The notes below the pieces were generated by a model. The model was not told the origin of the DNA. It saw only the letters and a program-made list of their open reading frames with translations, and did not search any database. From Candidatus Polarisedimenticolaceae bacterium (lineage in GTDB: Bacteria; Acidobacteriota; Polarisedimenticolia; Polarisedimenticolales; DASRJG01), in NCBI GenBank assembly GCA_036275915.1, contig DASUCV010000004.1, forward strand, positions 389,238 to 453,237: 64,000 nucleotides of DNA, written 5' to 3'. The position numbers and the translations under genes are program-made. The stretch's first letter is position 1. The number at the start of each line of letters is the position of its first letter. This document shows, in pieces, positions 7,123-59,892 of the stretch.

Positions 7123-8991
7123 TTAGGAGGCCGCCTGGTCGATCAGGATCTTTCTCACGTTCCCTTCGCGCCGCGTCAACCGCTCGGCATCGAGCTGCTC
7201 GAGGAGCGGGATGGCGTTCTTGCGCGTCACGCCGGCGAGCTCCTTGAACGCGCCGACATCAATCGTACCCGATGTCCGGGCGAACTCGCGGAGCTTGAGG
7301 CGCATGCCTTCGAGCGCTTCCGTGTGAAAAAGCCGTCCATCCCGGATTTTCACGAGAACTCCCCTCTCGACGAGCAGGCCGAGGAGGCGCGAGCCGTTCT
7401 GTCCGGGTGTTGCGCGGAGGATCTCGTCCGCGGCCGGCGGGTCGAGCCCGGCATTGCGAAAGGCTGACTCGATGTGCGCGATTCCTGCCGCATCCGCGGG
7501 CGAAAGTACCACCCGGAAGCCGGCGCCCGCCACCCGATCGCCGCTCAGGACGAGAACCTTCTCGAGGGCCAGCGACTCCAGCAGATGGCGGAACGCCTCG
7601 CCCGGCATCGCGCGCGCCACGGCGGCGCGGAGCGTCTCGCGCGTCATCCCCGGCCGCAAAGGCTCGCGCGCGTGGAACGCGGCCAGCTCCCCGGCGACAC
7701 GCGCGCCGAGATCGGACCAGACCGGCGCGGCGAAGAGCAGCGCGCCGGCGCGCACGAGGTGTCCCGCGGAGGCGAGCGAGACGGCGGTGCGCTCCGTGTC
7801 CTCGAGCGTCGCGCCCAGCTCGGCGGCGATGGACTCCAGGGTCTTCCCCGCCACACCGGCGGCCGCGATGCGCGCGACCCATGCGCCTTCACCGGTCGAC
7901 GGCGCCGCCGCCGCGCGCGACCCCGCCGGGTGCGCATCGAGGACGACGCCGCCGCCGATCGTGTCGACCGGCGCCGGGCGCCGCAGGATGAAACGGTCTC
8001 CGGGGAGAAGGACCGTGTCCTCTCGAAACGTGATCTCCCCGACCGAGGCTCCCCGATCGTCGGCCTTCAGGCCGCGGAGGAGCGCCGCGCGCTCGCACGT
8101 GCCCTGGTGGAAGCGTACGGCGCCGCCGCGGCGCAGTCTTGCCGGCGCTCCGGCGAGGAATGTGACCGCGACGCGCGCACGCCGCGTGGTCAAGAGCGTC
8201 TCTGGGTGCGCGAGCGTCGCTCCGCGCGGAGACTCGGCGCGATCGAGACCCTGCACGTTGACCGCCACGCGCGATCCCGCGAGCACGCGCGAGACTTGCC
8301 GCTTGTGCACCTGCAGTCCCCGGATGCGCCCGCGCCGGTGCCGCGGCAGGATTTCGATCTCGTCTCCCTCCGCGAGCGCACCGGAGACGAGCGTTCCGGT
8401 GACGACCGTGCCGAACCCCTTGAGCACGAACGACCGGTCGATCGGCAGGCGGGCCACGCCCGCGGCCGCGCGCGGGGGAAGCTTCCGCAGCCACGAGCGA
8501 AGCGCGTCGCGGAGCGCCGGGAGGCCTTCGCCCGTTCGGGCGGAGACGGCGACGATCGGCGCATCCTCGAGGAACGTGCCGGCGGTGAGCTCCCGGGTCT
8601 CCATCGCGACGACCTCGCGAAGGTCCGGCTCCGCCAGGTCCGCTTTCGTGATCACGACGAGCCCCGCGGCGACCCCGAGGAGCGAAGCGATGGCGAGGTG
8701 CTCCCTCGTTTGCGGCTTGACGCCGTCGTCCGCCGCGATCACGAGAAGGACCGCGTCCAGGCCCGAAGCGCCCGCGACCATGTGCCGCACGAACCGCTCG
8801 TGGCCGGGCACGTCCACGAAGCCGATCACCCCGTCGTCCTCGAGGTCGAGGTCGGCGAATCCGAGATCGATCGTGATCCCGCGCCGCTTCTCTTCCTTGA
8901 GGCGATCGGGGTGGACGCCGGTCAACGCTTCGACGAGCGCGCTCTTTCCGTGATCGATGTGCCCCGCCGTTCCGACGACCAGATGCCGCAA
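7123..8991 (-). CDS. selB: Selenocysteine-specific elongation factor SelB
   Basis: A 622-residue GTPase that delivers Sec-tRNA(Sec) to UGA codons marked by a SECIS element. G-domain motifs are clear: GTAGHIDHGKS (P-loop), DVPGHERFV, and ITKAD. Beta-barrel domains follow (RSFVLKGFGTVVTGTL, HKRQVSRVLAGSRVAVN), then a C-terminal region of winged helices that bind SECIS RNA. The chosen TTG (MRHLVVGTAGH) matches usual SelB starts and has GGAG 8 bases upstream; a TTG two codons earlier overlaps the kinase stop as TTGA and is the alternative. selA lies at 58.5-59.9 kb; selC and selD are not seen. It is probably co-transcribed with the kinase gene upstream. Confidence 0.95.
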   Translation of the reverse strand: MRHLVVGTAGHIDHGKSALVEALTGVHPDRLKEEKRRGITIDLGFADLDLEDDGVIGFVDVPGHERFVRHMVAGASGLDAVLLVIAADDGVKPQTREHLAIASLLGVAAGLVVITKADLAEPDLREVVAMETRELTAGTFLEDAPIVAVSARTGEGLPALRDALRSWLRKLPPRAAAGVARLPIDRSFVLKGFGTVVTGTLVSGALAEGDEIEILPRHRRGRIRGLQVHKRQVSRVLAGSRVAVNVQGLDRAESPRGATLAHPETLLTTRRARVAVTFLAGAPARLRRGGAVRFHQGTCERAALLRGLKADDRGASVGEITFREDTVLLPGDRFILRRPAPVDTIGGGVVLDAHPAGSRAAAAPSTGEGAWVARIAAAGVAGKTLESIAAELGATLEDTERTAVSLASAGHLVRAGALLFAAPVWSDLGARVAGELAAFHAREPLRPGMTRETLRAAVARAMPGEAFRHLLESLALEKVLVLSGDRVAGAGFRVVLSPADAAGIAHIESAFRNAGLDPPAADEILRATPGQNGSRLLGLLVERGVLVKIRDGRLFHTEALEGMRLKLREFARTSGTIDVGAFKELAGVTRKNAIPLLEQLDAERLTRREGNVRKILIDQAAS

Positions 8992-17867: not shown

Positions 17868-18974
17868 TCATCCGTCGCGGCGCGTCCGGCGCATGCGCTC
17901 TTCCGCATGGCGCGCGCGCGCCAGGTCGATCAGCTTCGTCAGGAGGTCCCGGTAGGACAGCCCCGACGCCTCCCAAAGCTTAGGATACATGCTGATCGGC
18001 GTGAAACCCGGAAGCGTGTTGACCTCGTTGATGAGGATCCGGTCGGACCCGCGCTCGAGGAAGAAATCGACGCGCGCCATCCCCGCCAGATCGAGAGCCC
18101 CGAACGCCTCCTGCGCGAGCGCGCGGATGCGCTCTCCGATCTCCGGTGCCAAGGGCGCCGGGATGAGCAGGCGCGACGAGCCGTCCTGGTACTTCGACGC
18201 GTAATCGTAGAATTCGCCCGCGGGGACGATCTCGCCGCAGATCGAAACCTCCGTCCGGTCGTTTCCGAGGACCGCGCACTCGATCTCGCGCACGTCGAGA
18301 CCCTTCTCGACCACGACCTTGCGATCGTGCTCGAACCCGGCCTCGAGCGCTTCGGGGAGCGCCTTCGCGTCGCGCACCTTGGAGATCCCCACCGACGAGC
18401 CGCCGTTGGCGGGCTTCACGAACATCGGGAAGCCGAGCGCCTCGGCGAGGCGCCGCTCTTCGGTCTCGCGATCCGCCGACCACGCGCTCCGCAGGAGCGA
18501 GCGCCAGGGGCCGACGGGGAGCCCGCGCTCCTGGAAGAGCGCCTTCGCGACCTGCTTGTCCATCCCCACCGCGGAGCCGAGAACGCCCGACCCCACGCAC
18601 GGAATGCCGGCGAGATCGAGCAGCCCCTGGATCCGGCCGTCCTCCCCGCCCCAGCCGTGGACGACGGAGAAGATGACGTCGAGCTGCAGGCGCGACGGCG
18701 CGTGCCCGTTCGCCGTCGCCAGGAGCCCGCCGGCGCCCGGATCGACGACGAGCCCCGCATCTCCGTCCGCCTGCGCGCGGGACGCTCCGGAAGCGAGGAT
18801 CGCGGCCGACGCGGCAGGCGCGAGCCAGCGGCCGTCCTCGGCGATCGCCACCGGCACGACGTCGTAGCGAGCTGGGTCGAGCGCGCCGGCGACGCCGCGC
18901 GCGGAGACGACGGAGACCTCGTGCTCGACCGAGGCTCCGCCGAAGAGCAGACCGACGCGCGCGCGAGGGGTCAC
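17868..18974 (-). CDS. ddl: D-alanine-D-alanine ligase
   Basis: A 368-residue ATP-grasp ligase that makes the D-Ala-D-Ala dipeptide of peptidoglycan precursors. Recognisable elements: GGASVEHEVSVVSA near the N-terminus, VHGWGGEDGRIQG, VKPANGGSSVGISKV (ATP loop), KYQDGSS (omega loop start, typical for D-Ala specificity), ARVDFFLE and INEVNTLPGFTPISMYP. Length fits the family. The GTG start overlaps the tlpA stop as GTGA. Its place in a thiol-redox operon is unusual but the enzyme itself looks fully conserved. Confidence 0.95.
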   Translation of the reverse strand: MTPRARVGLLFGGASVEHEVSVVSARGVAGALDPARYDVVPVAIAEDGRWLAPAASAAILASGASRAQADGDAGLVVDPGAGGLLATANGHAPSRLQLDVIFSVVHGWGGEDGRIQGLLDLAGIPCVGSGVLGSAVGMDKQVAKALFQERGLPVGPWRSLLRSAWSADRETEERRLAEALGFPMFVKPANGGSSVGISKVRDAKALPEALEAGFEHDRKVVVEKGLDVREIECAVLGNDRTEVSICGEIVPAGEFYDYASKYQDGSSRLLIPAPLAPEIGERIRALAQEAFGALDLAGMARVDFFLERGSDRILINEVNTLPGFTPISMYPKLWEASGLSYRDLLTKLIDLARARHAEERMRRTRRDG

Positions 18975-19477
18975 GACGGCCGCGCCCGCCCTTCCTGGCG
19001 GACGACCCGCTCGACGGCGGCCTTGAACGCCGCGTCGATCGTCCCGGCGCGCGCGACGATCGTCCCCTTCCGGTCGATGAGGAAGTGGGCCGGGATGTTG
19101 GTGGCACCGAACGCCGCGGTGACGGTACCGTCGGCATCGAAGAGGAGCCGGCCCGGATGCGGCTGCGAGGCGCCGAACTCCTGCAAGCGCGCCGCCGTCT
19201 GCCGCGTCGGCACCGCGACGAGGAACAGCCGATAGCCGTCCGCCTTCCAGCGGTCGTCGAGGTCGAAGAGCTTCGGCAGCTCCTGGACGCAGGGTTGGCA
19301 CCACGTCGCGAGGAACACGACGTGCATCGGCCCCTGCGCGGGGTCGAGCGCGACCTTCTCTCCCGTCGCGGGGTCGGTGGCGGCGGGAACCGGCGAGGGA
19401 AGCGACGCGGGCTGCTCGGCAGCGAGAGCCGCGCCGGCGAGGAGCGCCGCGCCCAGGAGCACACGGACGCGGCTCAT
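18971..19477 (-). CDS. Secreted TlpA-like thioredoxin-fold thiol reductase
   Basis: A 168-residue exported protein: signal peptide MSRVRVLLGAALLAGAALA, then a thioredoxin fold with active site WCQPC and cis-Pro loop NIPAHFLIDRKG. TlpA/ResA-type proteins reduce disulfides outside the cytoplasmic membrane, for example in cytochrome c maturation. It directly follows ccdA (ATGA overlap), which would supply electrons from the adjacent cytoplasmic thioredoxin. Anchoring is by cleavable or uncleaved signal; no lipobox is seen. Confidence 0.9.
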   Translation of the reverse strand: MSRVRVLLGAALLAGAALAAEQPASLPSPVPAATDPATGEKVALDPAQGPMHVVFLATWCQPCVQELPKLFDLDDRWKADGYRLFLVAVPTRQTAARLQEFGASQPHPGRLLFDADGTVTAAFGATNIPAHFLIDRKGTIVARAGTIDAAFKAAVERVVRQEGRARPS

Positions 19478-20217
19478 GCGCGACCCCCCATGTGCCTCCA
19501 GAGGTCGATGGCTTTCCATAGGAACCCAGCGCCGATCAGGATCATCGCGATGCCGAACCCCTTCTTGATGCGGTCCATCCATGCCCCGCCCCGCGGCAGG
19601 CTCGTCAGCAGTCCAGAAAATATGCCCAGGAGCATCAGGAGCAAACCGAGCCCCAGGGCGAACACGAAAAGGAGCGTCGCACCCCACGCGACGTTCTGTT
19701 TCTGGCCCACGTACGCGAGGAGGAGGCCCAGGACCGGCGCCGTGCACGGGGCGGCGACGAACCCGGCCGCGACCCCCATCAGGGCAGCGCCGGCGAACCC
19801 GCCGCGCCTGGCGCCCTGGCCCTGCACGCTGGTCATGAGCGCCGGGATCGTGAAGACGTCGAGCATCGAGAGGCCGAGCGCCATGATGACGAGCCCCACG
19901 GCGCCGAAGACCCAAGGCGAGCGTGTGAACTCTCCGAAGATCTTGCCGAGGAGCGACGCGACGACGCCGAGGGTCGCGTACATGAGCGAGAGTCCGAGGA
20001 CGTACGTGACCGACAGCGCCACGGCGCGCCGGCGGTTCCCTCCGGCGGCCCCGCCGATGTAGGTGACCGTCACCGGGATCATCGGGTAGACGCAGGGCGT
20101 CAGGCTGGTGAGGACGCCGGCCGCGAAGACGACGAACACGGCGCCCACCGAGCCGGCCTGGAGCTGCGCCTGGAGCGTCTGGCTCAGGTGGTAGCCCCAC
20201 TCGTTGAGGGTCTCCAC
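19474..20217 (-). CDS. ccdA: CcdA/DsbD-type transmembrane thiol-electron transporter
   Basis: A 247-residue membrane protein with about six helices. Two conserved cysteines sit in the inverted pseudo-repeats TSLTPCVYPMIPVT and AAPCTAPVLG, which pass electrons from cytoplasmic thioredoxin to periplasmic partners. It matches the transmembrane module of DsbD/CcdA without soluble domains. GTG start, one base after the trxA stop; stop overlaps the tlpA ATG. The order trxA-ccdA-tlpA forms a complete cytoplasm-to-periplasm reducing path in one operon. Confidence 0.9.
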   Translation of the reverse strand: METLNEWGYHLSQTLQAQLQAGSVGAVFVVFAAGVLTSLTPCVYPMIPVTVTYIGGAAGGNRRRAVALSVTYVLGLSLMYATLGVVASLLGKIFGEFTRSPWVFGAVGLVIMALGLSMLDVFTIPALMTSVQGQGARRGGFAGAALMGVAAGFVAAPCTAPVLGLLLAYVGQKQNVAWGATLLFVFALGLGLLLMLLGIFSGLLTSLPRGGAWMDRIKKGFGIAMILIGAGFLWKAIDLWRHMGGRA

Positions 20218-20218
20218 G

Positions 20219-20542
20219 CTAGAGAACCTTGTCGACCCTGTCCGCCAGCGCCTTCTTCGAGAGAACGCCGACGACCTGGTCCTTGACCTGGCCGCCGCGG
20301 AAGATCATGAGCGTCGGCACCGAGAAGACCCCGAACTTCGCCGCGGTTCCGGGGGCGGAATCGACGTCGACCTTCACGACCTTGAGGCGCGCGCCGTAAT
20401 CGGCCGCGATCTCGTGGACGATCGGCTCGAGCTTCTTGCACGGCCCGCACCAGACGGCGGAGAAGTCGACGAGCACCGGCGAGGCGCTCTTCAAGACCTC
20501 GGCGTCGAAGTTCTGGTCGGTCGCATTGACGATCTCGCTCAT
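20219..20542 (-). CDS. trxA: Thioredoxin
   Basis: A 107-residue cytoplasmic thioredoxin with the classic WCGPC active site, buried Asp (LVDFSAVWCGPC), cis-proline (FSVPTLMIF) and C-terminal GVLSKKAL. It reduces protein disulfides using thioredoxin reductase. First gene of a five-gene run to the HNH gene. An extended -10 element (TGCTACACT, minus strand, 20590-20582) lies about 40 bases upstream. Confidence 0.95.
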   Translation of the reverse strand: MSEIVNATDQNFDAEVLKSASPVLVDFSAVWCGPCKKLEPIVHEIAADYGARLKVVKVDVDSAPGTAAKFGVFSVPTLMIFRGGQVKDQVVGVLSKKALADRVDKVL

Positions 20543-20581
20543 GAGATGACCTCGTCGCCGCCGAAACGCGGCGTACCGGAG

Positions 20582-20590
20582 AGTGTAGCA
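20582..20590 (-). promoter_or_regulatory. Extended -10 element for trxA operon
   Basis: TGCTACACT on the minus strand, 39 bases upstream of the trxA ATG. No clear -35 hexamer, consistent with an extended -10 promoter. Lies back to back with a similar plus-strand element at 20616. Confidence 0.5.
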
Positions 20591-20615
20591 AGCGACCGGC
20601 GACCGAGGTTGAAAG

Positions 20616-20624
20616 TGCTACGAT
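20616..20624 (+). promoter_or_regulatory. Extended -10 element for sir2-larC-metG
   Basis: TGCTACGAT on the plus strand, about 54 bases before the TTG start at 20679. TTGAAA directly precedes it but too close to be a standard -35. Predicted from motif only. Confidence 0.45.
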
Positions 20625-51145: not shown

Positions 51146-52873
51146 ATGAGACTCGCGGCTCTGGTCCTTCTCGGCTCGGCCACAAGTTTCGCCTTCGCGG
51201 CCGACGTCACTCCTCCCGCCTCCGTCACCGGACTCCTCGCGGCCAGGTCGGGCGCCGACGTCCAGCTCCAGTGGGACCCGGTGTCCCTTGATGCGACCGG
51301 CGGCGCGGAGACGATCACGGCCTACCGGATCTACCGCGGCACCTCGGCTGGATTCGTTCCCGACAAGACGCTCGGATCGAATCGGGTCGGAACGTCTTCG
51401 TCGCCTTCGTTCCTCGACGGCAATGCGATCGCCTCGGGGCTCGACGGTTACTACCTCGTCAGCGCCGTCGATGCGGCGGGCAACGAGTCGGCGACCCGCC
51501 CCGCTACGGCCGTGTCGGCGGCAACGCTCTCGGGGACGTACACCGACACGGGGGTCGACCTGAACTGGACGGCCGCCGCACCGGCCGACCAAGTCGCGAA
51601 GTACCTCGTGTACTACGGGACGGCCCCGCACCGCTACGACGCGGTGAAAGATGTCGGGCCGGCGACCTCGACCTCGATGACGGGCCTGTCGGCGAACGTC
51701 AACTATTACTTCGCTGTCGTCGCCGTCGACCCGGCAGGCAACGCCGGGCCTTACTCGAACGAGCACGTCGACTGCGTCGCGGGGCGCATCGCCCTCAAGG
51801 CACACGATGACGATGGGCTCTGCTGGCTCTCGGGCGGGCAGAGCTGCCCCGTGCGTGCCGGTGCCGTGCAGCGCGACGACGGCTTCCAGCTCATGGTCCC
51901 CGTCGACTTCCCGGAAGGCGCGTGGACCAAGATCACGATGACGCTGACGATGGACTCACGCCTCTGCAAGGTCGGCGCGAACGGCACGACCGACAAGTGC
52001 GGCAGCACGAATCCCACTCCCGGCGGCTGGAACCCGTGCGGCGACCCGTGGGACCGGATTGCCCAAACCTTCCTCGTCCTCGACAACTGTCTCGCCGGGA
52101 CCGGGTCGTGCATCACGAACGACAACCTCGAGCTGATCCACGCCGTGACACCGTTCGGCACCGACGCCCCCGCGCCGAACGGCACCGGCGTCGTGCCGCC
52201 GCGCGTCGTCACGATGGACGTCACGCCCTACGCGCCTCTCCTGAGCGGCCACCGGTTCATCGGCGCCGAGATCGCGAACTTCGCGACCGCAGGCTGGCAC
52301 GTTACGACCCAGTTCCAGTTCACGAAGCGCCCGGAAGAGGCGTCGCCGAAGCATCCGGCGGCGGGGATTGAGGTCGTCGGTTTCGGCGGCGCGCCGCTGC
52401 CGTCCCGCTCCGTCTCGATTCCCCTGGGCGCGACGCAGGTCAAGGGTCGCCTCTTCACGACCGGCCACGGCGGCACGCAGTACTGCGACGGCGGATCGAA
52501 CGACGGCGCGGCCTGCACGGCGAACTCGAACTGCCCCGGCGGCAGCTGCCAGAACTGCGACGAGTTCTGCCACCGCACGAACCGCATCTTGAAGAACGGC
52601 GCGCCGGTCTACACCGTGGTGCCCTTCCGCACCGACTGCAGCGTCCCCGTCACCGCGTGCCAGTCGTGGAATGCCTGCGGCTTTCCGTCGTGCGCCTTCT
52701 CGCGCGCCGGCTGGTGCCCGGGGTACCTCGCCTGCACGAGCAACGCCCCCGGCTGCGATCAGGACATCGATCTCACGTCGCAGTTCCCGCCCGGCGGGAC
52801 CTACAACGTGAGCTACGACGTCCTCGTCCAGCGAGGGAGCTGGTCGGTCAGCCTCGTCCTGTACTGGTACTAG
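51146..52873 (+). CDS. Secreted peptide-N-glycosidase F-like protein with two FN3 domains
   Basis: A 575-residue exported protein. Signal peptide MRLAALVLLGSATSFAFA; two fibronectin type III domains (about 20-110 and 115-205; LSANVNYYFAVVAVDPAGN). The rest resembles PNGase F: an N-terminal barrel (about 215-400) and a C-terminal barrel with VKGRLFTTGHGG, NCDEFCHRTNRILKNG, VVPFRTDC and SRAGWCPGYLACT. PNGase F-type enzymes remove N-glycans from asparagine. The conserved GHG/EFC/WCPG pattern supports homology, but catalytic residues were not all matched by eye. Fourteen or more Cys suggest disulfides. Converges with the M61 gene (4-base overlap). Confidence 0.75.
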   Translation: MRLAALVLLGSATSFAFAADVTPPASVTGLLAARSGADVQLQWDPVSLDATGGAETITAYRIYRGTSAGFVPDKTLGSNRVGTSSSPSFLDGNAIASGLDGYYLVSAVDAAGNESATRPATAVSAATLSGTYTDTGVDLNWTAAAPADQVAKYLVYYGTAPHRYDAVKDVGPATSTSMTGLSANVNYYFAVVAVDPAGNAGPYSNEHVDCVAGRIALKAHDDDGLCWLSGGQSCPVRAGAVQRDDGFQLMVPVDFPEGAWTKITMTLTMDSRLCKVGANGTTDKCGSTNPTPGGWNPCGDPWDRIAQTFLVLDNCLAGTGSCITNDNLELIHAVTPFGTDAPAPNGTGVVPPRVVTMDVTPYAPLLSGHRFIGAEIANFATAGWHVTTQFQFTKRPEEASPKHPAAGIEVVGFGGAPLPSRSVSIPLGATQVKGRLFTTGHGGTQYCDGGSNDGAACTANSNCPGGSCQNCDEFCHRTNRILKNGAPVYTVVPFRTDCSVPVTACQSWNACGFPSCAFSRAGWCPGYLACTSNAPGCDQDIDLTSQFPPGGTYNVSYDVLVQRGSWSVSLVLYWY

Positions 52874-54474: not shown

Positions 54475-54516
54475 ACACGGTGGTCGACGGCGAATCTAAC
54501 AAGGTTGCCGGCCACT

Positions 54517-54525
54517 TGCTACCAT
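54517..54525 (+). promoter_or_regulatory. Extended -10 element for ychF
   Basis: TGCTACCAT on the plus strand, 20 bases before ATG 54546, which is preceded by GGAG. Same motif class as 20616 and 39841. Confidence 0.5.
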
Positions 54526-54545
54526 CCCGCCTTCGCGGAGAACAA

Positions 54546-55622
54546 ATGCGCATCGGCCTCTTCGGATTCCCCCAGACCGGCAAGTCCACCCTCTTCCGCC
54601 TGCTCACCGGAGCGCCCGAGACGCCGCCCGGCGCTCGCGACGCCGTCCAGATCGGCGTCTCGAAGGTCCCGGACCCACGCCTTCTGCGTCTGTCGGCGAT
54701 GCACAACCCGAAGAAGACGACGCCGGCGACGGTCGAGTACATGGATCTCGCGGCGATCGAGAAGGGCGAGGCCGCGGAGGCCCTGCCGCTCGACCAGCTC
54801 CGCACGGTCGACGCGCTCGCCCACGTCGTCCGCGCCTTCCGCGACGAGGCGGTCGCTCACTCCGAAGGATCGATCGACCCCGCACGTGACGCTGCGACGA
54901 TGGAGACGGAGCTGATCCTCGCCGATCATACGATCGCCGAGCGGCGGCTCGAGAAGCTCGAGATGGCGGTGAAGAAGGCGGGGCGCGACGAGGACAAGAA
55001 GGATCTGGAGATGCTGAAGCGCTGCCTCGCGGCGCTCGAGAAGGAGACGCCTCTCCGGAACCTCGAGTTCTCCGAGGAGGAGACGAAGCGCCTGCGCGGG
55101 TTCACGTTCCTCTCACTGAAGCCGCTCCTCGTCGTCGTCAACGCCGATGAAGCCGATGCCGCAAGGCTCTCCGAGGGACCGGGGGCGTTCGGTCTCGCCG
55201 AGTTCGCGACGCGCCCGAACACCGAGGTCGTCGCGCTCTCCGCCAAGATCGAGACGGAGATCAGCCAGCTCGACGCCGCCGACGCCGAGACGTTCCGTGG
55301 CGAGCTCGGCATCGCCGAGCCGGCGCTCGACCGGATGATCCGGGCGTCGTACCACCTGCTGGGACGCATCTCATTCTTCACCGCGGGTGAGGACGAGTGC
55401 CGCGCGTGGACGATCCGGCAAGGGACGAAGGCGCGTCAAGCCGCGGGCGCGATCCACAGCGACATCGAGAAGGGATTCATCCGCGCCGAGCTGTGCGCTT
55501 ACGACGATCTCGTCGCCGCCGGGAGCTGGGCGGCGTGCCGTGACAAGGGAACGCTGCGCCTCGAGGGGAAGGAATACCCAATGAAGGACGGCGACGTCGT
55601 GAACTTTCGGTTCAACGTCTGA
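54546..55622 (+). CDS. ychF: Redox-responsive ATPase YchF (Obg-like)
   Basis: A 358-residue P-loop NTPase. G1 GLFGFPQTGKST; the nucleotide-specificity segment is VVVNADEADA (NxDE in place of NKxD), the known basis for ATP preference in YchF. C-terminal TGS domain (AHSDIEKGF-like: GAIHSDIEKGFIRAEL, and MKDGDVVNFRFNV). Acts on ribosomes in stress and translation. ATG 54546 gives the family N-terminus. Confidence 0.95.
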   Translation: MRIGLFGFPQTGKSTLFRLLTGAPETPPGARDAVQIGVSKVPDPRLLRLSAMHNPKKTTPATVEYMDLAAIEKGEAAEALPLDQLRTVDALAHVVRAFRDEAVAHSEGSIDPARDAATMETELILADHTIAERRLEKLEMAVKKAGRDEDKKDLEMLKRCLAALEKETPLRNLEFSEEETKRLRGFTFLSLKPLLVVVNADEADAARLSEGPGAFGLAEFATRPNTEVVALSAKIETEISQLDAADAETFRGELGIAEPALDRMIRASYHLLGRISFFTAGEDECRAWTIRQGTKARQAAGAIHSDIEKGFIRAELCAYDDLVAAGSWAACRDKGTLRLEGKEYPMKDGDVVNFRFNV

Positions 55623-55695
55623 GCTTTCTCCGAACCTCGGCCTAACGGACCTCTCGTGTCCCGAGAGAAGGCTGGCATCGTTGGGCGGGGGGCAT

Positions 55696-55708: not shown

Positions 55709-56371
55709 GTGATGATCGCGACGCTCCTCCTCGCGGCGACACTGGCCCCCGCCCCGCAGGTCGCGATGGCGACGCGCGACGGCAAGCCCGTCGCGCTCTC
55801 GAGCTACAAAGGGAAGGTGGTCGTCCTCGACTTCTGGGCGTCGTGGTGCGGCCCGTGCCGGAAGAGCTTCCCGTTCTTCGAGGGGCTGGAGTCGCGCTAC
55901 GCGCCGCAGGGGCTCGCGATCGTCGGGCTCTCCCTCGAGGATGACGACGAGGCGGTCGCGACGTTCCTCGAGGAGGTCCCGGCGTCGTTCGCGATCGCGC
56001 GCGACCCGAGCGGCCGCGCCGGCGAAGCGTTCGGCGTCGTCGCGATGCCGACGACGTTCCTGATCGACCGCGAGGGGAACGTCGCCGCGCGCTTCGAGGG
56101 CGGCGACGTGAGCGTCCACGAGAAGATCGAGGCGGCGGTCAAGACGCTCCTCGCCGGAGGAGCGCTGCCCGACGGGACCGACGTGCGGGTCGCGTCGAGC
56201 CTCCATGCGACCGGCAGCCTCAAGGCGTGGGAGCGCGGCTATCTCGCCGACCCGATCATGAGCCTCGACGGAAGCCCGCTTTCGAGGATCATCAAGGAGC
56301 ACATCCACGCGAGCAAGGAAGGAGCGTCCGGCGACGGCGGCGCTGCCGGCGGCGGCTGTGGCTGTAACTAG
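55709..56371 (+). CDS. Exported TlpA-like thioredoxin fused to a DUF4266 tail
   Basis: A 220-residue two-domain protein. A short hydrophobic N-terminus (MMIATLLLAATLAPAPQ) is a likely signal peptide; residues ~20-145 are a thioredoxin fold with active site Cys47-Cys50 (FWASWCGPCRK) and cis-Pro (AMPTTFLIDREG). Residues ~155-220 match DUF4266 (SSLHATGSLKAWERGYLADP, then HIHASKE) and end in a flexible Gly-rich tail with GGGCGCN, a CxC pair at 217/219. DUF4266 is usually a separate small lipoprotein. It overlaps the DUF3570 gene by 14 bases. Function is unknown; the CxC tail may be a substrate or metal site for the thioredoxin domain. Confidence 0.8.
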   Translation: MMIATLLLAATLAPAPQVAMATRDGKPVALSSYKGKVVVLDFWASWCGPCRKSFPFFEGLESRYAPQGLAIVGLSLEDDDEAVATFLEEVPASFAIARDPSGRAGEAFGVVAMPTTFLIDREGNVAARFEGGDVSVHEKIEAAVKTLLAGGALPDGTDVRVASSLHATGSLKAWERGYLADPIMSLDGSPLSRIIKEHIHASKEGASGDGGAAGGGCGCN

Positions 56372-57563
56372 GAGGCGTCGCCAGCAGGCGCTCCGGCGAA
56401 GCCGCCTTCCCCTCGTCCTCGCCGGTGTCGGCGGTCTCGCCGCCGGGAGCGCGCGCGCGCAGTCGAGCCTCGAGTTCCGGTATCTCCTGTACCAGGAATC
56501 GAACAACCGCACCGAGGTCTCGAACCCCTGGATCTTCCTCAACCACGACTTCGGGCAGAAGGGCGGGCAGCTCTCGCTGCTCCTCGGCTACGACACGATC
56601 TCGGGCGCCTCGCCCACGGGCGCGTATCCGACGACCGACACGACGACCTCCGCCTCGGGATCGCACACGTCGAGCTCGTTCCCGATGGCCGAGTATCACG
56701 ACACGCGCAAGTCCGTGACGGCTTCGTATGGGCGGAAGTTCGGCGCGAACCTTCCTTCGGTCGACCTCTCGTACTCGAAGGAGAACGATTACACCGCGCG
56801 CGGCGCCGGCCTCTCGGACGCGTGGACGATGGCGAAGGGGCGCGGCACGCTCCACGCCGGCATCGCCTTCTCGCGGGACATCGTGACGCCCGTGACGACG
56901 AGGGTCGACCATCCGAAGTCGAGCGACAGCTACGCCCTCGGTTGGAGCTGGATCCTCGGCGAGCGGGACCTGTTCGACGTCTCGGCATCGCTGGCCCGGC
57001 TCTCCGGCTATCTCGACGACCCGTACAAGGTCGTTCCCGTCGGATCGCCGACGACGACGGTGCCCGAGCACCGGCCCGACGCGCGCTCGCGCTACGCGGC
57101 GATCTTCAAGTACGGCCACTTCTTCGTCGACGCGAACGGCGCGCTCAAGGTCAGCTACCGGTACTACTGGGACGACTGGGCGATCGGCGCCCACACCGTC
57201 GAGCTGCTGTACGACCAGCGGTTCGGATCCAGGTGGACCGTCTCGCCGCTGGTGCGCCTCTACACGCAATCCCACGCGTCGTTCTTCGGCTACGAGTTCG
57301 CCGTCGCCCAGACGTACATGTCGGCCGATTATCGCCTCTCCGCGTTCGACAGCGTCCTCGGCGGCCTGACGATCGCGTACGCGATCCGGCCGAACCTCGT
57401 CCTGAGCGTGGGCGCCACCTACCAGAGCCAGCACGGACGCGACCGCATCACGCCGCTCTCCGCTGTCCCGCCGTCGGACGATGGCGGGGGCGGCCCGGGA
57501 ACCGCCTCCGCGGCCGACATGAACGTCACGACCGGGACGATCGGGCTCACCTGGCGCTACTGA
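56358..57563 (+). CDS. DUF3570 outer-membrane beta-barrel protein
   Basis: A 401-residue exported protein: signal peptide (LPLVLAGVGGLAAGSARAQ, cleaved about residue 34-35) and a series of amphipathic beta strands ending in aromatic residues (final residue Tyr: GTIGLTWRY), typical of an outer-membrane barrel. It matches DUF3570. Residues 79-85 read DTISGAS, which fits the D-x-x-S/T-G-A-S/T pattern flavinylated by ApbE, and apbE is the next gene. The only in-frame start is GTG 56358, inside the upstream gene. An AGGAGG lies just downstream of it, so translation is probably coupled. Flavinylation is inferred. Confidence 0.82.
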   Translation: MAVTRRRRQQALRRSRLPLVLAGVGGLAAGSARAQSSLEFRYLLYQESNNRTEVSNPWIFLNHDFGQKGGQLSLLLGYDTISGASPTGAYPTTDTTTSASGSHTSSSFPMAEYHDTRKSVTASYGRKFGANLPSVDLSYSKENDYTARGAGLSDAWTMAKGRGTLHAGIAFSRDIVTPVTTRVDHPKSSDSYALGWSWILGERDLFDVSASLARLSGYLDDPYKVVPVGSPTTTVPEHRPDARSRYAAIFKYGHFFVDANGALKVSYRYYWDDWAIGAHTVELLYDQRFGSRWTVSPLVRLYTQSHASFFGYEFAVAQTYMSADYRLSAFDSVLGGLTIAYAIRPNLVLSVGATYQSQHGRDRITPLSAVPPSDDGGGGPGTASAADMNVTTGTIGLTWRY

Positions 57564-57565
57564 GC

Positions 57566-58528
57566 GTGGACGAAAGGACGCTCTACACCACGCGGTTCGC
57601 GCTCATGGGCGGGTCGGGGCTGATCCGCTTCGTCGACCGCCGCGGCCGCACGGAGGCGCAGCGTCTCGCGCGCGCGGCCGAAGCGGAGGCGCTCCGCATC
57701 GAATGGAAATTCTCCCGCTATCGCGAGGCGAGCGTCGTCTCCGAGATCACCCGCAACGCGGGACGGACGCCGGTCGCCGTCGACGACGAGACGGAGCTCC
57801 TCGTCGCGGCGGCGCTCGATCTCGCGCGCCTCACGCGCGGCCGGTTCGACCCGACGGTCGGTGTCCTCCGTCGCGCGTGGGACTTCCGCGCGCGGCGCGT
57901 CCCGGCACCGGACGAGATCGCGGCGCTCCTGCCGCTCGTGAATTTCGAGGCAGTGTCGATCCGCGAGAAGACGGTGTTCCTCCGCCGGCCCGGGATGGAG
58001 CTCGACCTCGGGGGGGTCGGCAAGGAGTACGCCGCCGACCGCGTCGCCGATTTGCTCGAGGAGGGCGGCGTCGAGTCGGCGCTCATCAACTTCGCGGGCG
58101 ACGTCCGGACCGTCGGAGGGCGGGGCGACGGCTGGCCGTGGTCGGTCGGCGTCGCCGATCCGCGCGAGGCGGGGCGGGTCCGCTTCGCGCTGCGGTTCCC
58201 GGGCGCGGCCGGTGTCGCCACCTCGGGCGACTACGAGCGCTGCTTCGTCGTGGACGGCGTCCGCTACCACCACCTCCTCGACGCGACGACCGGCCGCCCC
58301 GCGCGAGGCGTCGCGTCGGCGACCGTGCTCGCGCGGACGGCGTTCGAGGCCGGCCGTCTCGCGACCGCGTCGTTCCTCCTCGGCGCGGACGAGGGTCTCA
58401 CGGTCATCGCGCGCGGAGGCGCCGAAGGCGCGCTGGTGCTGGAAGACGGATCGATCCGCGCGACCCCGGGAATGGACCGGTACTCCGATCTCCCCGGCAG
58501 CCTCTACGCCGCGTACCCGGCGATCTAG
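57566..58528 (+). CDS. apbE: ApbE-like FAD:protein FMN transferase with a changed Mg site
   Basis: A 320-residue member of the ApbE family, which attaches FMN to Thr/Ser of exported proteins. Motifs are present: FSRYREASVVSEI, DLGGVGKEYAADR (Gly149-Gly150, Lys153), NFAGDVRTVGG and HHLLDATTGRPARG. The usual A-D-A-L-x-T Mg motif reads AGRLAT: Gly263 replaces the Asp ligand, while Thr267 is kept. There is no signal peptide, whereas most ApbE proteins are exported lipoproteins. GTG start 3 bases after the DUF3570 stop. It may act in the cytoplasm, use another ligand, or be inactive. The 3' end overlaps selA by 4 bases. Confidence 0.85.
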   Translation: MDERTLYTTRFALMGGSGLIRFVDRRGRTEAQRLARAAEAEALRIEWKFSRYREASVVSEITRNAGRTPVAVDDETELLVAAALDLARLTRGRFDPTVGVLRRAWDFRARRVPAPDEIAALLPLVNFEAVSIREKTVFLRRPGMELDLGGVGKEYAADRVADLLEEGGVESALINFAGDVRTVGGRGDGWPWSVGVADPREAGRVRFALRFPGAAGVATSGDYERCFVVDGVRYHHLLDATTGRPARGVASATVLARTAFEAGRLATASFLLGADEGLTVIARGGAEGALVLEDGSIRATPGMDRYSDLPGSLYAAYPAI

Positions 58529-59892
58529 AGGGCGTTCAGGAGGCGCGCGAGCAGGACCCCGTCCTGCTCCGGCAGAACGGTACGCAGGTCGAGCAGGACG
58601 CGGTCGTCCGCGACCCGCGCGATGACCGGCGGATCGCCCCGGCGGAGCGCCGCCTCGAGCTTCGCGGGGCTCGCGTGCTCGATCGCGAGAAGGACGGTCG
58701 GGATCTCACCGACCGGCGACGACCCGCCGCCGGGACGCGACACGCCGGGGACGAGCGACCAGCTCGCGGTGAGACGCTGTCCGATCGCTTCGGCGCGCGA
58801 CCGGATGGCTCCCGCGTCGAGCGCCATCATGCGCAGCGTCGGGACCTCTTCCTCGGCCCGCCCGGTCACGTATGCGACGAGCGTCGCGTGAAGCGCCGCG
58901 ATCTGCAGGCGGTCGAGGCGGAGCGCACGGGCCAGCGGGTCCTTCCTCATCTTCGCGACGAGGTCCGCCCGTCCGACCGCGAGGCCGGCCTGCGGGCCGC
59001 CGAGCAGCTTGTCGCCGGAGAAGGTGACGAGGTCGGCGCCGCGCGCGAGGATCGTTCCGACCGGCAGCTCGTCCCTCACGCCAAGGGGGCCGAGATCGAC
59101 GAGGTCCCCGCTCCCCCAGTCCACGACGAGAGGAACCGAGCGTGCGCGCGCGAGGGCGGCCAGATCCTCGATCGACGTCTCCTCGGCGAATCCGACGACC
59201 TTGAAATTGCTCGTGTGGACCTTGAGGAGAACGCCGGTCTTCGCGGAGAGCGCGGCCTCGTAGTCGGCGGCCCGCGTCCGGTTCGTCGTGCCGACCTCGC
59301 GAAGCTTCGCGCCCGACGCGGCGAGGATGTCGGGGATGCGGAACGAGCCGCCGATCTCGACGAGCTCTCCCCGCGAGACGACGACCTCGCGCCCCTTCGC
59401 GAGCGCTCGGAGCGCAAGGAAGATCGCCGCGGCGTTGTTGTTCACCGCGAGCGACGCCGAGCCGGGGAAGAGGCGGGCGAGCAGGCTCGCGAGCGGGCCC
59501 AGCCGGTCGCCGCGCGCTCCCTTCGCGACGTCGTACTCGAGATCGACGTAGCCGCGCGCCGTCTCGGCCACACGCGCCGCCGCGGCGTCCGAGAGGATCG
59601 AGCGCCCGAGATTCGTGTGGGCGATGACACCCGTCGCGTTGATCACCCTCCGGGGAGCGGCCCGGAGGAGCGCCCCCGCGCGCTCGTCGACGAGCGCCGC
59701 GAAGCCCGCCTCGTCGGGGATCCGGGGCGTGCGTCCCGCGTCCTGAAGCGCCTCTCGCAGCTCGTCGAGCGCCTCGCGAAGAAGCGCCGTGACGAGCGGA
59801 CGGCCGCGGCTCGCGAGGACCGGCGCCATCGCCGGATCGTCCAGGAGGCGCGACACCGCAGGCAGCGACTTGAGCGCTTCGTTCGTCGTCAT
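58525..59892 (-). CDS. selA: L-seryl-tRNA(Sec) selenium transferase SelA
   Basis: A 455-residue PLP enzyme that converts Ser-tRNA(Sec) to Sec-tRNA(Sec) using selenophosphate. PLP-Lys in FSGDKLLGGPQAG, with VINATGVIAHTNLGRSILS and VDWGSGDLVDL typical of SelA. Length fits the bacterial decameric enzyme. The N-terminal tRNA-binding segment is intact. Divergent from the MXAN_5187-like gene and convergent with apbE. Together with selB it shows a working Sec pathway. Confidence 0.95.
   Translation of the reverse strand: MTTNEALKSLPAVSRLLDDPAMAPVLASRGRPLVTALLREALDELREALQDAGRTPRIPDEAGFAALVDERAGALLRAAPRRVINATGVIAHTNLGRSILSDAAAARVAETARGYVDLEYDVAKGARGDRLGPLASLLARLFPGSASLAVNNNAAAIFLALRALAKGREVVVSRGELVEIGGSFRIPDILAASGAKLREVGTTNRTRAADYEAALSAKTGVLLKVHTSNFKVVGFAEETSIEDLAALARARSVPLVVDWGSGDLVDLGPLGVRDELPVGTILARGADLVTFSGDKLLGGPQAGLAVGRADLVAKMRKDPLARALRLDRLQIAALHATLVAYVTGRAEEEVPTLRMMALDAGAIRSRAEAIGQRLTASWSLVPGVSRPGGGSSPVGEIPTVLLAIEHASPAKLEAALRRGDPPVIARVADDRVLLDLRTVLPEQDGVLLARLLNAL

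Follow-up and report, generated by a model that had tools for sequence, protein, structure and literature searches.

The stretch of DNA analysed here, referred to as the window, comprises 64,000 nucleotides of a 4.5 Mb draft genome assigned to the Acidobacteriota. On its forward strand, three genes form a tightly packed operon: a tlpA::DUF4266 fusion gene with a GTG start (55709..56371), a gene encoding a DUF3570 protein (56358..57563), and apbE (57566..58528), encoding a FAD:protein FMN transferase. The fusion gene overlaps the DUF3570 gene by 14 nt, such that the GTG start of the latter at 56358 sits within the codons for the CGC tail of the fusion protein. The DUF3570 gene and apbE are spaced by 2 nt, and apbE overlaps by 4 nt with the convergent selA (58525-59892, minus strand), which flanks the cluster downstream; ychF (54489-55622, plus strand) flanks it upstream. 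A preliminary description, made from the sequence alone, had reported three overlapping or abutting genes, and all of them were present with their Pfam families confirmed. The fusion protein matched Redoxin (E = 1e-25, residues 14-134) and DUF4266 (PF14086, E = 3e-20, residues 172-220), and the other two proteins matched DUF3570 (E = 1e-58) and ApbE (E = 3e-73), all far above the cut-offs.

The Redoxin and DUF4266 domains indeed share a single reading frame, and the protein ends in GGGCGCN, in agreement with the thioredoxin-DUF4266 fusion and CxC tail proposed earlier. Its thioredoxin active site is CGPC (55847..55858), and nearly all homologues have CxPC at this site. The DUF4266 domain spans 56222..56368, and the CGC within the C-terminal tail (56357..56365) provides a predicted redox-active cysteine pair. 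The TlpA domain resembles ResA and DsbE structures (E down to 1e-29) and has the Redoxin fold, the CxxC motif and the export leader of the TlpA/ResA family, although the leader is weak if translation starts at 55709. A better leader is obtained from an in-frame GTG at 55658 on the same strand; the true start is uncertain. A role for selenocysteine, prompted by the adjoining selA, was considered and dropped, as the active sites of the cluster are ordinary cysteines. The genome does contain selenocysteine machinery: besides the selA gene that abuts apbE, a SelB wing domain is encoded at about 7150-7284 (minus strand) of the same window. Elsewhere in the window, the plus strand at 51146-52873 encodes an exported protein, cysteine-rich near its end, that combines fibronectin type III with a peptide-N-glycosidase F-like domain at the C-terminus.

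Clusters of ApbE, DUF3570, thioredoxin-like and DUF4266 genes were described by Meheust et al. 2021 (PMC8238504), among their 'DsbD systems'. Hence, the preliminary description erred in calling the system undescribed, and the two families that it regarded as unknown, DUF3570 and DUF4266, had already been placed in a flavinylation cluster. The 2021 study demonstrated by UV gel and Ser-to-Ala mutants that DUF3570 of Chlorobium luteolum is flavinylated by ApbE. This protein has two [ST]GA[ST] motifs, and flavinylation was abolished only when both serines were changed. The proteins were expressed in E. coli, cloning was done with signal-peptide-truncated genes, and flavinylation still occurred. 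The same authors suggested that the CxC of DUF4266 may undergo redox cycling. Our locus shares with the published clusters the four domains, the flavinylation motif of DUF3570 and the CxC tail of DUF4266, but here TlpA and DUF4266 are one protein and the cluster contains no DsbD. The latter still allows membership in the described system, because DUF3570 was found in 227 DsbD clusters and another 316 four-gene clusters had no DsbD (PMC8238504). The main text of PMC8238504 mentions no fusion, barrel or leaderless ApbE, though its supplementary tables may list the fusion, and 'outer membrane' appears in it only once, for siderophore transporters. DUF3570 does not come up in the accessible part of a later paper by these authors (PMC11334425). 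The system is real, well conserved and had been described before, and the locus is a fused variant of it; new here is comparative evidence on the place of flavin attachment and on the position of the flavin. The gene set, the motif, the barrel topology, the missing ApbE leader and the fusion were computed in this study.

Relatives of DUF3570 were collected by a scan of bacterial and archaeal genomes, from which the best 80 of 263 loci were used, and by searches within the phylum, which together yielded 108 neighbourhoods. The 80 scan loci were picked by similarity, so that close relatives are over-represented, many of them Gammaproteobacteria, and the scan used a narrow alignment, one spanning all loop types (see below) being too diverse. 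All four domains occurred together in 85 of the 108 neighbourhoods (including the best 80 of 263 scan loci), which argues that the arrangement is not due to chance; the 23 remaining neighbourhoods were mostly cut by contig ends or had no detected TlpA. The four-domain neighbourhoods span Acidobacteriota, Eisenbacteria, Gemmatimonadota, Nitrospinota and many Proteobacteria. The possibility that DUF3570 occurs mostly without apbE, which would have spoken against the preliminary description, was not borne out: apbE adjoins DUF3570 in most loci examined. Among 149 sampled Acidobacteriota genomes, DUF3570 was found in 10, DUF4266 in 9 and both in 8. Acidobacteria bacterium Mor1, which belongs to the same taxonomic order as the source genome, also carries the cluster (one locus, L027 and L114).

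TlpA and DUF4266 shared one frame in 17 loci of the 108 neighbourhoods, all in Acidobacteriota and including the window and Mor1. DUF4266 was a separate gene in 87 loci of this set (again including the best 80 of 263 scan loci). There is thus good evidence that the two proteins act together, since they are fused here and are neighbours elsewhere. Separate DUF4266 proteins usually have a lipobox (69 of 88 frames). The fused proteins lack one, and therefore the TlpA part stands in for the lipid anchor. On the tree, the fusion requires two changes, in a clade of 11 rows with the window and in a clade of 4 rows with Mor1. The fusion seems likely to have arisen twice independently; a single origin was not rejected (AU p = 0.24), and we make no claim on this point.

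The tail GGCGC[NKST] was kept in 104 of 105 DUF4266 frames, i.e. in 17 of 17 fused and in 87 of 88 separate proteins. Such conservation of a terminal CGC could also indicate a metal site for copper, iron or zinc, in a module that takes up or detoxifies metal, with FMN as a local reductase. The VIT1 iron transporter found in 25 such clusters (PMC8238504) and the RND exporters that neighbour the cluster in 11 of our loci would fit this explanation. However, nearly every locus either fuses the tail to a thiol reductase or encodes the two side by side, which fits redox cycling, and no metal transporter adjoins the cluster in the window. We therefore regard a metal site as quite unlikely and favour redox cycling of the tail.

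The DUF3570 protein, with a leader up to about position 56459, was modelled with AlphaFold2 using 48 relatives. The model has 16 strands (mean pLDDT 89.3, pTM 0.85), and its best Foldseek matches are the outer-membrane barrels OmpG, PelB, PorB and FadL; a search of solved structures by sequence gave no match. Outer-membrane barrels commonly end in an aromatic residue, and such a residue is found in 90 of 96 relatives of the window's barrel type. An even strand number, a leader and a C-terminal aromatic residue are all those of outer-membrane beta-barrels, and the porin-like model bears out the outer-membrane barrel assumed earlier. In the model, the even-strand turns comprise 2-8 residues, and the loops at residues 53-75, 184-207, 271-295 and 327-353 comprise 23-27 residues. 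The long loops are gathered at one end of the barrel and the short turns at the other. The flavinylation motif DTISGAS (56592..56612), which follows the pattern D..[ST]GA[ST], lies at the tip of strand 3 (residues 45-51 of the mature model); the loop that follows is of low confidence (pLDDT <50 at residues 61-69). Because the usual topology puts both ends of the barrel chain in the periplasm, the long loops and the motif tip would lie outside. Topology thus suggests that the motif sits at the outer end of the barrel.

Of 89 loci, 77 have the strict motif D..[ST]GA[ST] in this loop, and only one has two full motifs there. The published logo of the DUF3570 system shows two [ST]GA[ST] motifs; the window has one in full, SGAS, and a degenerate second one, TGAY. 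The serine encoded at 56610-56612 is the predicted FMN acceptor and does not vary when all three of the loop types described below are aligned. Together with the flavinylated C. luteolum homologue (PMC8238504), the motif in the window supports the earlier proposals of a barrel that carries flavin and of an envelope flavinylation and redox system.

The ApbE of the window has no hydrophobic leader, and neither the signal peptide nor the lipobox of typical exported ApbEs is present. With a simple hydrophobicity scan as the leader test, a leader was flagged in only 1 of 85 ApbEs beside the window's barrel type, in a segment far upstream of the domain that is probably spurious. A controlled set of ApbEs beside this barrel type gave 0 of 12, ApbEs not linked to the cluster, from these and related genomes, gave 13 of 14, many with a lipobox, and ApbEs beside the two other loop types gave 5 of 5. 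The window's genome holds both kinds, the leaderless ApbE of the cluster and a leader-bearing ApbE at C4:634009. Since the ApbE beside the window's barrel type has no leader, FMN is probably attached to the barrel in the cytosol, before export. Periplasmic flavinylation of the ApbE/NqrC type (PMC12052999) uses the same enzyme family and the same motif, D-x-x-[ST]-G-A-[ST], but there ApbE is usually an exported lipoprotein, whereas here it is leaderless even though its target is an outer-membrane protein. The ApbE that serves the fumarate reductase of Klebsiella pneumoniae (PMC12052999) is cytosolic and also has no signal peptide, but its target stays in the cytosol.

A leaderless ApbE could instead modify another, cytosolic protein, with the barrel being a plain porin, and cytosolic ApbEs acting on cytosolic fumarate reductases set a precedent (PMC12052999). 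This is very improbable, however, as the motif D..[ST]G[AS][ST] is held at one barrel position in 96 loci and a DUF3570 homologue is flavinylated by its neighbouring ApbE (PMC8238504). Moreover, the sole FMN_bind protein found in the genome is encoded elsewhere, at C4:591675, 42 kb from the leader-bearing ApbE. Flavinylation of the barrel itself agrees better with these data.

The leaders of the DUF3570 proteins also differed between barrel types. Their median hydrophobicity was 1.90 in the window's type (n = 94) versus 2.41 in the other types (n = 12; Mann-Whitney p = 0.008, a guide only, given the relatedness of the sequences). TlpA leaders of the same operons had a hydrophobicity of 2.60, compared to the 1.90 of the window-type DUF3570 leaders. 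We speculate that a slow DUF3570 leader would allow modification before export. Weakly hydrophobic leaders with a recurring core such as AALAAASCALL or AALTLATTALL were seen in window-type DUF3570 proteins of Gammaproteobacteria (e.g. L065, L077 and L109), unlike the ordinary leaders of the same operons.

Three types of motif loop were distinguished. The window's type, D.[IVLM][ST]G[AS][ST], was found in 96 of the 108 loci (including the best 80 of 263 scan loci). A haem-type loop, D.I[ST]A[AS]SDSC.RCH or close to it, was found in six Acidobacteriota (L031, L034, L148-L151), and a third type, D.[IV][ST]SAS, in six loci (L153, L154, L155, L033, L163 and L164). In the third type, a second motif like VSSASR or VSGASR follows, ApbE has a leader, and the gene order is mostly apbE-DUF4266-DUF3570-tlpA. 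The tree joins the two non-window loop types on long branches, and we do not claim an order of descent.

The sequence CxxCH is the attachment motif of haem c. In haem-type barrels it directly follows the FMN-type serine, and these barrels contain no other cysteines. They share a histidine in strand 1 that is absent from the window's type. A model of the haem-type barrel again has 16 strands (pLDDT 91) and matches outer-membrane barrels, with the CxxCH in a short low-confidence helix of the same loop. The ApbE in these loci has a leader, and an additional upstream gene, found in all six haem-type loci but in no other locus, encodes a lipoprotein with one CxxCH. This monohaem lipoprotein weakly resembles, below the cut-offs, PccH and planctomycete cytochromes. 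Within 3.5 kb of barrels of the window's type, the operon strand showed no lipoprotein cytochrome gene. A frame change interrupts the monohaem cytochrome gene of one locus (L034:14385-15524) and marks either a pseudogene or a fault in the assembly. Haem-type genomes carry cytochrome-c assembly genes, as do all genomes tested, and a search of viral contigs for relatives of the haem-type barrel found none. The haem-type loop could still take FMN, because a Gly-to-Ala change in the motif left about half of the flavinylation (work cited in PMC12052999). From its sequence, the haem-type barrel is possibly a barrel with both flavin and haem.

These data are consistent with the following mechanism for a fused variant of the ApbE-flavinylated DUF3570 system, to which we assign a probability of roughly 60%. 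While DUF3570 is still in the cytosol, the leaderless ApbE would move FMN from FAD onto the last serine of DTISGAS. After export, DUF3570 would fold into a 16-strand outer-membrane barrel that holds the flavin in its vestibule or at the outer end. Electrons would pass from cytosolic thioredoxin via a CcdA/DsbD-type carrier to the CGPC of the exported TlpA domain, and from there to the cysteine pair that ends the glycine-rich DUF4266 tail of the same protein. The CGC tail, probably reaching into the barrel, would reduce the barrel flavin, which would hand the electrons to a surface acceptor. That export follows flavinylation is inferred, as are the route and direction of the electrons and the acceptor that they reach.

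A possible electron source in the window is a CcdA/DsbD-type membrane electron carrier (open frame 19474..20304, minus strand; PF02683, E = 4e-45 at C4:408768-409379), which adjoins a thioredoxin reading frame with WCGPC (20219..20617, minus strand). Thioredoxin, carrier and a TlpA-like protein stand in a row at 18971-20617 (minus strand). The neighbourhood of the cluster in the window contains no DsbD, the nearest CcdA/DsbD-type gene being 36 kb away. The electron donor is a guess, because none of the 107 other neighbourhoods has a DsbD gene near the cluster either.

The sequence does not fix the direction of electron flow, and the flavin barrel might take electrons from outside or sense an oxidant or metal, oxidising the DUF4266 and TlpA thiols inward. 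Genes of a response regulator or kinase family lie close to the cluster in 33 loci, and an AcrB-type (RND) exporter gene does so in 11 (counted after antisense open frames had been filtered out); such neighbours might point to metals or stress. These families are common, however, and may be nearby by chance, with many loci coming from few related genera. Furthermore, relatives of TlpA/ResA that have CxPC sites usually act as periplasmic reductants. Hence, inward flow or sensing seems unlikely, and we retain the outward path from TlpA to the barrel flavin.

Porin-cytochrome conduits of the MtrCAB type move electrons across the outer membrane by means of a barrel and multihaem cytochromes. Likewise, the barrel is proposed here to carry electrons across the outer membrane, but the multihaem cytochromes would be replaced by a thiol carrier and by FMN that is predicted to be bound covalently to the barrel, and no lipoprotein cytochrome gene lies within 3.5 kb of this barrel type on the operon strand. 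More tentatively, and with less than even confidence, DUF3570 barrels may be outer-membrane electron conduits whose cofactor loop was re-equipped in evolution. In the version of the window, a leaderless ApbE would attach FMN before export, and the thiol tail of TlpA::DUF4266 would supply this flavin with electrons through the barrel. The sister version would have flavin and haem on adjacent residues of the loop, an exported ApbE and a dedicated monohaem cytochrome.

Judging from the haem-type relatives, one barrel loop may be the site of electron transfer. The missing ApbE leader leads to a testable question, namely whether the Sec pathway accepts a barrel precursor that already bears its cofactor. 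The system bears on how bacteria send electrons out through the outer membrane. If the proposed mechanism is true, a flavin fixed to a barrel and supplied with electrons by a fused thiol carrier would form another sort of wire than multihaem cytochromes, and one small enough to rebuild in E. coli.
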